The notes beneath the pieces were generated by a model. The model was not told the origin of the DNA. It searched no databases and saw nothing but the letters and a program-made list of their open reading frames with translations. Shown piece by piece: positions 5,112 through 6,441 of a DNA stretch of 6,441 nucleotides. The stretch is taken from contig OMQY01000166.1 of assembly GCA_900313405.1 (NCBI GenBank), positions 1-6,441 of the forward strand. Reading direction: 5' to 3'. Position 1 is the stretch's first letter. Every line of letters begins with the position of its first letter. Source of the DNA: an uncultured Eubacteriales bacterium (GTDB taxonomy: Bacteria > Bacillota_A > Clostridia > Saccharofermentanales > Saccharofermentanaceae). The position numbers and the translations under genes are program-made.

Positions 5112-6041
5112 ATGGCATTCGTACAGGCAAAATGTGTTAACTGCGGCGGTATCCTGACCGTGGATCCTGACCTCAAGACAGCAGCTTGCCCGCACTGCGG
5201 CGTGACTTATGTTGTTGAGGATTCGATCAAATACTATAACTCGGTCACGAAGGTCGAACATCTTCATGCAGATGTTGTTAATATCGCAGACGAGAAATCG
5301 TCGGAGGGACTTCTTGCCGCTGCCGATGCTTACGTTAAGATCGGTAAGTTTAAGCTCGCCCGCGACAAATACGAGCAGGCGACCGCACTGGCGCCTCAGA
5401 ATTGGCGCGGCTGGTGCGGCCTGATCGTGGCAACTACTCATAACTTCGAGAAGAGGATACAGTCGAGAGGCACACTTATGATGCTGGAAGATTATGCCAG
5501 GTCGGCCGAAGCTTTCTCGACAGACGGGGAGTGTAACAGGCTCATCAAGCGGTACAAGGAATATGAGTCCGCTCAGAAGGATCTGAATAAAAAGGAGATA
5601 TCTGAGCTTCGCGATTCTGTCAGGGAGACTGAGAATAAGCTTCAAGCCCTCGGCGTGTCGGAAGGGAACTGTCGCTCTTCGATCGAACAGGCCCGTGTAG
5701 ACAAGGGGGTAATGGAAAATAAGATCAGCGATATCCGTCATGGTGCCATAAGACCGGTAAGCCGGGCCGTTATAAGTGCGGACATCATTGTCAGTATCTT
5801 TCTCAAGATCTTCATTAAAGGTCTGTTGGGCCTTAAGGCGCTTGTTCTGCTGCCGGCAGTATCGCTTGCCGGAGTTTTGATCCATTCACATGTCTCGGAG
5901 CATAAGCTCGTTCGCGACCTTCGGGAGATCGACGGCAATCTGCCACAGTGGTCAACGTCCGCCGATTCCATAAAGAAGGACAGGATCAGCCTCGAGCACG
6001 AGAAAGAATCTCTGCTGGAGACGCTTAAGGCGTATGAGTAA
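5112..6041 (+). CDS. Uncharacterised zinc-ribbon / TPR / coiled-coil membrane protein
   Basis: I do not recognise a specific family for this 309-residue protein, but its architecture is readable. An N-terminal zinc ribbon uses C8-x2-C11 and C26-x2-C29 (CVNC, CPHC). Residues about 62-105 form a TPR-like helical pair (AADAYVKIGKFKLARDKYEQATALAP), followed by an aromatic stretch. Residues about 145-208 are charged and heptad-like, probably a coiled coil. A hydrophobic segment at about 218-258 could be one or two membrane passes (LKALVLLPAVSLAGVLI is the strongest). A second charged helix runs from about 262 to the end. The ribosome binding site AGGGAGG (5099-5105) is 6 nt before ATG. The gene has its own promoter and is divergent from the membrane-protein gene, with which it may share a function; that link is inferred from position only. 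A scaffold or assembly role at the membrane is plausible but unproven. Confidence 0.85.
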   Translation: MAFVQAKCVNCGGILTVDPDLKTAACPHCGVTYVVEDSIKYYNSVTKVEHLHADVVNIADEKSSEGLLAAADAYVKIGKFKLARDKYEQATALAPQNWRGWCGLIVATTHNFEKRIQSRGTLMMLEDYARSAEAFSTDGECNRLIKRYKEYESAQKDLNKKEISELRDSVRETENKLQALGVSEGNCRSSIEQARVDKGVMENKISDIRHGAIRPVSRAVISADIIVSIFLKIFIKGLLGLKALVLLPAVSLAGVLIHSHVSEHKLVRDLREIDGNLPQWSTSADSIKKDRISLEHEKESLLETLKAYE

Positions 6042-6053
6042 GTTTTTCGAAAG

Positions 6054-6074
6054 GCAACCGTCCGGGCGGTCTGC
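6054..6074 (+). other. Imperfect stem-loop after the zinc-ribbon gene
   Basis: GCAACCGT (6054-6061) pairs with GCGGT-c-TGC (6066-6074) around a CCGG loop, with one G·U pair and one bulged C. It starts 12 nt after the stop codon, but the sequence after it (ATCCTTCTATAG) has only a weak T content. It may be a transcript end or an RNA stability element; as a canonical terminator it is weak. Confidence 0.35.
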
Positions 6075-6128
6075 ATCCTTCTATAGATGTTTTAGTATCT
6101 TGAGTTGTTGATGAAAAAAATATCCTTT

Positions 6129-6275
6129 GACAAACGACACGGAAACGACACTGTCAAGGAGGATTCTTATTGTCGTTTTTTTGTCGTTCGGGCTTTGAGA
6201 GGGTGTTTTCGGCCGAACGACACGGAAACGACAATGCCTGGCAGGGAATCCGTTGTCGTTTTGTTGTCGCTTGTC
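6129..6275. repeat. Symmetric array of TGTCGT/ACGACA half-sites upstream of a promoter
   Basis: Eight hexamers are present. ACGACA occurs at 6134, 6145, 6217 and 6228. TGTCGT occurs at 6171, 6182 and 6254, with TGTCGC at 6265. Each pair is 11 bp apart (6 + 5 spacer, one helical turn), and pairs alternate in orientation. The whole set is mirror-symmetric about 6202: every half-site on the left has a reverse-complement partner at the mirrored position. This includes outer GACA (6129-6132) and TGTC (6272-6275). Eighteen bases are identical between 6133-6150 and 6216-6233, 83 bp apart. The inner inverted repeat 6171-6191/6213-6233 matches at 18 of 21 positions. Hexamer direct repeats at 11-bp steps are typical operators of OmpR/PhoB-family response regulators (for example Bacillus PhoP), so an operator array is my preferred reading. 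A structured or mobile palindromic element is the alternative. Confidence 0.85.
6143..6182 (+). terminator. Weak terminator-like hairpin formed by the first two array units
   Basis: AAACGACA (6143-6150) pairs with TGTCGTTT (6171-6178) around a 20-nt loop, and the T-run continues to 6182. In RNA this could end transcripts coming from the zinc-ribbon gene about 100 nt upstream. The stem is mostly A/T rich and the loop is large, so termination would be weak at best. The same bases are more simply explained as part of the half-site array. Confidence 0.25.
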
Positions 6276-6290
6276 GTAAGGTGCTATAAT
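6261..6290 (+). promoter_or_regulatory. Promoter of the secreted-protein gene
   Basis: TATAAT at 6285-6290 has a TGn extension (TGC at 6282-6284) and a partial -35, TTGTTG (6261-6266), at 18-bp spacing. It is 34 nt before the ATG at 6325. The last array half-sites (6254, 6265, 6272) cover the -35 region, so a protein bound there would contact or block RNA polymerase. The ten bases GTGCTATAAT are shared with the promoter at 5076-5085. Confidence 0.75.
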
Positions 6291-6324
6291 AAAAGCAGCT
6301 AATCTATTACGAGGGGATACAAAA

Positions 6325-6441
6325 ATGAATAAGCGTTTCCGTAAGCTGATGGCAAGCTTAGTAGCTTTATTAATGACTTTCTCTTTTATCACAGCTTCGG
6401 CTGTTGCCGCAGATAAAGCTCCTGTAATCGATCGCTCACAG
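6325..6441 (+). CDS. Secreted protein, N-terminus only (3' end outside window)
   Basis: Only the first 39 codons are in the window. ATG at 6325 is preceded by GAGGGG (6311-6316) at 8-nt spacing. The product begins with a classical Sec signal peptide: a basic n-region (NKRFRK, 2-7), a hydrophobic core from about L8 to I22, and a signal peptidase I site around ASAVAA (24-29), giving a mature protein beginning near D30. The protein is therefore exported, and no lipobox cysteine is seen, so it is not a lipoprotein. The mature part visible (DKAPVIDRSQ) is too short to name a family. Leucine and valine codons here are A/T-ending (TTA, GTA), unlike the CTC/CTG preference of the upstream genes. The promoter and half-site array immediately upstream suggest regulated expression. 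Confidence 0.85.
   Translation, partial: MNKRFRKLMASLVALLMTFSFITASAVAADKAPVIDRSQ

Follow-up and report, generated by a model that had tools for sequence, protein, structure and literature searches.

The half-site array at 6135..6269 of the window (the whole 6,441-nucleotide stretch of DNA analysed here, from an uncultured Eubacteriales bacterium) probably consists of two tandem units of an extragenic palindromic repeat of the REP/BIME/NIME kind that is lineage-specific and dispersed, and we are fairly confident in reading it as a repeat element and not as a switch dedicated to the gene downstream. The pattern is genuine and greatly exceeds what chance would give, with eight exact TGTCGT/ACGACA hexamers between 6041 and 6330 compared with a mean of 0.22 and a maximum of three in 2,000 sequences drawn from the dinucleotide model of this region.

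Structure and surroundings of the array

The array consists of two 52-bp palindromes, CGACA-N6-CGACA-N20-TGTCG-N6-TGTCG, placed head to tail with 83-bp spacing, and the five-base core CGACA/TGTCG starts at 6135, 6146, 6171, 6182, 6218, 6229, 6254 and 6265. An earlier note on this DNA had described eight TGTCGT/ACGACA hexamers as four pairs, each at 11-bp spacing and in alternating orientation, symmetric about an axis near 6202. The pairs, their spacing, orientation and symmetry are all present, but the hexamer is exact at seven of the eight half-sites (6265 reads TGTCGC) and it is the five-base core that is common to all eight; a further exact TGTCGT lies beside the array at 6272. The mirror axis at 6202 arises because each unit is itself palindromic, with local axes near 6160 and 6243, and the two stand in tandem, so that what had been seen as a single mirrored array is two copies of one palindrome. 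Tandem Repeats Finder, a program tuned to closer copies, did not list 6135-6269 when run on the window. The features of the array and its surroundings are given below, where G001 is the closest relative examined (a draft MAG) and C-numbers refer to loci or contigs of G001.

5112..6041, + strand: upstream neighbour gene, 309 aa, with weak zinc-ribbon and TPR matches; 84% identical in G001
6067..6128, no strand: upstream shared stretch, like C9 (61/64) and C33 (58/65) and not like C17 (26/64)
6135..6186, no strand: palindromic unit 1, with half-sites 6135-6139, 6146-6150, 6171-6175 and 6182-6186 and a 20-base centre at 6151-6170; orthologous and paralogous copies in G001
6187..6217, no strand: 31-bp linker between the units, giving a unit-to-unit period of 83 bp
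6218..6269, no strand: palindromic unit 2, with half-sites 6218-6222, 6229-6233, 6254-6258 and 6265-6269 and a 20-base centre at 6234-6253; copies in G001
6282..6290, + strand: likely extended -10 promoter, TGC-TATAAT, read by eye, directly after the array
6325..6441, + strand: start of a gene truncated at the end of the window; residues 1-39 resemble a signal peptide by eye

Unit 1 starts 93 bp past the stop of the upstream gene, and 55 bp separate the end of the array from the next gene start at 6325. The TGn-TATAAT motif is conserved at C9, C17 and C33, although a consensus scan reported no promoter here. The product of the downstream gene is probably secreted; its first 39 residues, for which there was no match in Pfam, are 95% identical to gene starts at C17 and C33. 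The C33 gene with this start encodes a DUF4214 protein (with four DUF4214 stretches), and after it comes a gene with integrase-core domains that we read as an IS3-type transposase.

We also note two observations from elsewhere in the window. At 81-180, three 33-bp in-frame tandem repeats lie inside a methyltransferase-like gene at the window start, between what we read as the first two conserved motifs of the gene, and the methyltransferase-like protein of G001 is without this stretch. The segment at 6049-6108 has an 83% identical counterpart of 60 bp at an unrelated site of G001 (C18:36256-36315) and resembles, by eye, DNA beside a small holin-like toxin frame in G001 contig CAMNGC010000009.1 (L001). 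This 29-aa frame (L001 11572-11658) has a weak match to PF16935 (14.7 bits, where the cut-off is 23.3) and is, in our reading, some 330 bp before another DUF4214-type gene.

Copies of the unit and other word families in relatives

The window and G001 share 77% identity over approximately 6 kb of mostly coding DNA, and the 309-aa neighbour matches five loci in the genome contigs, one of them closely (84%) on CAMNGC010000009.1. The array region itself is 94% identical over 265 bp to C9, the orthologous intergenic region, 95.5% identical over 380 bp to C33 and 93% identical over 319 bp to C17; about 6129-6301 is common to the window and all three loci, with homology lost upstream at C17 and downstream at C9. 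The 94–95% identity of the array compared with 77% for its neighbourhood could also reflect strong local function or recent exchange. The C9 copy is without the downstream gene start of the window, and a start-less open piece after it (L001 11220-11440) may be the tail of a lost gene. These copies also bear on the outer GACA/TGTC pair which the earlier note had described as mirrored: the window has both members, but C17 lacks the left one, and the right one, kept at C33, is altered at C9 and C17; as the pair is not kept in all copies it looks like chance.

A strict scan of G001 for the window family (F1; up to two mismatches, with genes called by a simple finder of our own) identified 18 units at 11 loci, none of them in called genes, and the reversed-sequence control gave none; it should be noted that these dispersal counts come from the relative and not from the window's own genome. 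Neighbouring F1 units are spaced by 83 bp in 7/7 pairs. A four-unit array lies behind a H+-pyrophosphatase gene at C11, two units at C3:139182 are flanked by an L31 gene and the gene of a BrnT toxin, and one unit at C13 is some 62 bases behind tRNA-Cys, with the C17 array likewise coming after a tRNA. The other F1 loci are single units between genes, most with a TAGTAAA/TTTACTA inner palindrome, and it is because they share this palindrome that we accepted four loose matches (C1:59826, C12:50466, C2:134868 and C3:74805) having three to four mismatches, a level at which the control is equally rich. The BrnT toxin frame and a resolvase gene adjoin the two-unit array on C3 (C3:137613-139027, L036). 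Six solitary half-site pairs were also found in G001, three in genes and three intergenic; the possibility that they were the ends of a larger transposon was rejected, the three intergenic ones being units with one degenerate arm. The exact F1 pattern is absent from the other 58 of the 59 relatives' genomes, as it is from another 187 genomes.

At least four additional word families with inverted arms accompany F1 in G001. The TTCCC and TTAAGC families, at 12-bp spacing, came from a scan for five-base words of any sequence that occur as a direct repeat followed by its inversion, and two families with single arms, CGTCAACAGA and GACCACAGA, were added from word counts and reading. Their copies in G001 are as follows.

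F2, TTCCC: 23 units at 14 loci; neighbour spacing 54 bp in 8/9
F3, TTAAGC: 21 units at 19 loci; neighbour spacing 53 bp in 2/2
F4, CGTCAACAGA: 62 units at 19 loci, with 4 units in called genes (control 2); neighbour spacing 52-53 bp in 35/43
F9, GACCACAGA: 23 units at 11 loci; of 12 spacings, 53 bp in 6 and 64 bp in 4

The 74 loci of the five families amount to 58 sites, 12 of which hold two or more families. An unbiased tandem-repeat run on G001 gave 37 intergenic rows with a period of at least 30 bp, and 21 of these (19 without overlaps) had periods of 52-55 bp. The F2 and F4 patterns were not found in the other 58 relatives. When we sampled two distant relatives (five 20-kb stretches of G012 and G033, and L002-L005), one array of another word was found in G033 and one unit of a third word in G012. 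Genome-wide, the G033 word has 22 units (up to one mismatch) with 14/14 neighbour spacings at 74 bp, and the G012 word 14 units (up to two mismatches) with 6/6 at 74 bp, each word being confined to its own genome among the 59. As a control, the reversed G033 pattern gave between one and four matches in each of six other genomes and none in G033, and the reversed G012 pattern matched nowhere. The two G012 loci we read hardly differ in their linkers and centres, and the constant period of the G012 arrays may therefore be due to recent copying.

In a rival reading, which takes up the OmpR/PhoB suggestion of the earlier note, the array would be a dedicated operator at which a response regulator of that type binds Pho-box-like TGTCN tandem half-sites 11 bp apart and controls the gene for the secreted protein, with looping between the units. 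Direct repeats at 11 bp are indeed present, the half-sites are conserved, the last of them is close to the -10 box, and PhoB is described as reading TGTCA(T/C) and KdpE as using 6-bp direct repeats 5 bp apart (PMC3264566). The two-unit block, together with the gene start, is also found at C17 and C33, so that with the window there are three places where it stands before a gene of this type, as a promoter element would, and this counts against the repeat reading. However, units are also found after unrelated genes and where two genes converge, the downstream gene start is missing from the C9 copy, other words occupy similar positions in G001, and each pair faces an inverted pair, unlike the plain Pho box. 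Furthermore, of the 70 scored loci of the five G001 families (74 in total), 59 are closest to the 3' end of a gene, compared with 1,741 of 3,636 random intergenic points, and REPs are similarly reported to be predominantly downstream of genes (PMC3733652). F3 is convergent in 12/19 loci compared with 123/994 intergenic regions; F1 alone has no convergent lean, with seven co-directional, two divergent and one convergent amongst its 11 loci and one at a contig end. We consider the operator unlikely, and the control of the secreted protein by a response regulator is unsupported given that units occupy intergenic places away from this promoter. The earlier note had itself regarded recurrence of the block at many sites unrelated to promoters as the mark of a repeat element, and in substance this is what was found, as the unit recurs intergenically (at C11 and as single units), although the whole two-unit block recurs at high identity only at C9, C17 and C33.

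Conservation of the half-sites and candidate readers

Across the family the half-sites stay constant, whereas the spacers, centres and linkers have diverged, for the most part at unchanged length. Compared with the window, the C3 copy is identical at 40/40 half-site bases and 44/95 others (0/51 mismatches fall in half-sites), and three C11 frames at 40/40 and 62–64/95. The statement of the earlier note that half-sites are kept and spacers are not is thus borne out between loci but not within the window, where the spacers of the two copies are almost identical. Between loci, and considering only units and linkers of the commonest length, arms are 95–100% identical, other unit bases 60–76% (shuffled, about 30%) and linkers 45–69% (shuffled, 27–40%). 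As the copies were mostly found by half-site patterns there is ascertainment towards intact half-sites, but this does not explain all of the conservation because a scan allowing five mismatches gave 15, 2 and 1 units at zero, one and two mismatches (control 0) and nothing above the control beyond two; from three mismatches on, the reversed control was as rich as the F1 pattern in G001, and there are hardly any decayed copies above it. The C3 comparison and the scarcity of decayed copies support, at the level of sequence, the suggestion of the earlier note that the half-sites may be under selection for protein binding.

Symmetry could instead be selected as base pairing, with the units acting after transcription as hairpins (terminators or 3'-end stabilisers). 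The predicted RNA fold of the window array is strong (-67.7 kcal/mol, z -6.5), the loci are biased to 3' ends, and T runs follow some stems. We nevertheless regard this as improbable, as changed arm pairs are compensated in only 1/53 cases across the five families (a count in which the mismatch caps disfavour double changes), the 6-base spacers are often unpaired, and in the 22 G033 units the two sides vary independently of each other at arm position 9 (CA 6, TG 6, CG 5 and TA 5). The strand of the T runs also disagrees with co-directional gene orientation where single units were compared by eye. No intrinsic terminator was called at 5900-6441, with a loop limit of 3–8 bases that would miss the 20-base centres, and Rfam gave no match in the window and only a tRNA and a riboswitch, both away from the arrays, across seven loci. 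Since half-sites are fixed, spacers diverge and arm changes are rarely compensated, we infer that the half-sites are read as DNA by a protein and are not selected as RNA pairing, and that the strong fold of the window array is a by-product of its symmetry.

For the repeat element, we suggest that a sequence-specific DNA-binding protein, such as a transposase or recombinase or one of nucleoid type, would read the half-sites as DNA and so preserve them, with the two on each side, about one helical turn apart, being read together by this putative protein. New units would arise next to existing ones by tandem duplication and would reach other intergenic sites by spreading or being duplicated there. 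The array may affect the abutting promoter, but any such effect would be secondary. Searches for a mobiliser found no match to the Y1 transposase PF01797 (RAYT) in the draft MAG G001 (the control matched in 5/14 genomes), no gene framed by elements of the five G001 families within 700 bp, and no target-site duplication seen by eye in the listed flanks of F1 units. MITEs have such duplications and a parent transposon with matching ends.

TGTCG is also the core of the Spo0A 0A box, TGTCGAA, and a divergent Spo0A_C-like protein of the clade could bind the tandem half-sites. In G001, a protein of 185 aa (gene at C3:163315-163869) matches Spo0A_C weakly, at 20.1 bits where the cut-off is 25; its one PDB sequence match is the Spo0A chain 1lq1 (E 0.56), and its gene ends 27 bp from the single F1 unit at C3:163235. 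On the other side of this unit is an HU gene, and the stretch with both genes and the unit is C3:162636-163869. The link between this protein and the units is thin because the protein is present in 57/59 relatives, compared with one in 59 for the exact F1 pattern; the bases after TGTCG are T, C or A-rich with no fixed AA as in the 0A box, and the other word families are left unexplained. We therefore find this reading very unlikely.

Known systems and wider meaning

Among the closest known systems are the REP/BIME sequences (GTAG and CGTC superfamilies), which are described as short intergenic palindromes, single and grouped, with several families per genome and mostly downstream of genes (PMC3733652). 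F1 shares this dispersal as intergenic palindromes, at a copy number that is low for REP, and the CGTC REPs are likewise described there as lacking a dedicated transposase. The units differ in their doubled half-sites per side at 11 bp, unpaired spacers, 52-bp length and fixed array period, and in having no one-sided unpaired tag and, in draft G001, no Y1 transposase. REPs of the two superfamilies carry an unpaired GTAG or CGTC end tag, the CGTC families having 8–9 bp stems and 4–5 base loops (PMC3733652), whereas the units here start with CGACA and end with TGTCG inside the symmetry and have centres of 17–20 bases. The words Firmicutes and Clostrid do not appear in the main text of that paper.

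The neisserial dRS3/NIMEs are similar in that inverted-repeat elements are concentrated in intergenic mosaic arrays (PMC3898611), and the TTCCC-N8-GGGAA core of F2 resembles dRS3, given there as ATTCCC(N8)GGGAAT, a likeness which may be chance. The words of the window family differ from that of dRS3, which is reported as some 700 copies of 20-bp single palindromes (PMC3898611) compared with tens of copies here. The Leptospira interrogans satellites are also tandem non-coding repeats, of several 37–69 bp families transposed through the genome (PMC6749651), but in the five scanned G001 families the units have inverted arms, and a period of 53–54 bp is common to four of the families. The Pho box and KdpE sites resemble the units in having direct half-sites about one helical turn apart and a similar word (TGTCA compared with TGTCG; PMC3264566), and differ from them in the palindromic doubling, tandem units and dispersal behind unrelated genes seen here.

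Other origins were considered and rejected. A blastn search of phages and plasmids with 6110-6305 gave no match at E 1, and three exact pattern matches in viral contigs (L207, L208 and L209) were treated as chance or unrelated; the L207 match is inside a long open frame, and those in L208 and L209 lie between listed frames in TGTCG-rich sequence with no further likeness. These inter-frame stretches (L208 9450-9700 and L209 8000-8250) are rich in TGTCG words in both orientations. Integron attC sites have a box-spacer-box-loop layout similar to the units, and were set aside as there are no cassettes and the words differ by family.

REP/BIME/NIME elements are a known kind, and what is new here are the inverted half-sites (two per side in the window family), the preferred array period and the lineage-specific words; our literature search, with most subscription journals outside its scope, found no description of such arrays in this clade. 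A more speculative reading, which we consider less likely than not, is a clade-wide class of spacing-locked palindromic arrays, in which every species would have its own words but the geometry would be kept: inverted half-sites, doubled on each side at 11–12 bp in several families, and array periods of 53, 64, 74 and 83 bp, near whole helical turns. Phasing of the periods to the DNA helix is suggestive only (Rayleigh p 0.004–0.006, for 11 periods picked after being seen). The words would be read by a single, rapidly evolving family of DNA-binding proteins, which may be transposases of a type not yet described, and these would keep the units on the same side of the helix. If a single protein family does read the arrays, sequence alone would suffice to list its sites, and its specificity would be open to direct test.

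On this reading, what appeared to be a promoter switch is one copy of a dispersed element, and it would be wise, before calling a half-site array near a promoter an operator in genomes of this sort, to ask whether the array is dispersed. The genome of an uncultured member of the Clostridia can carry extragenic palindromic arrays of several families, whose words are lineage-specific and which favour certain periods.
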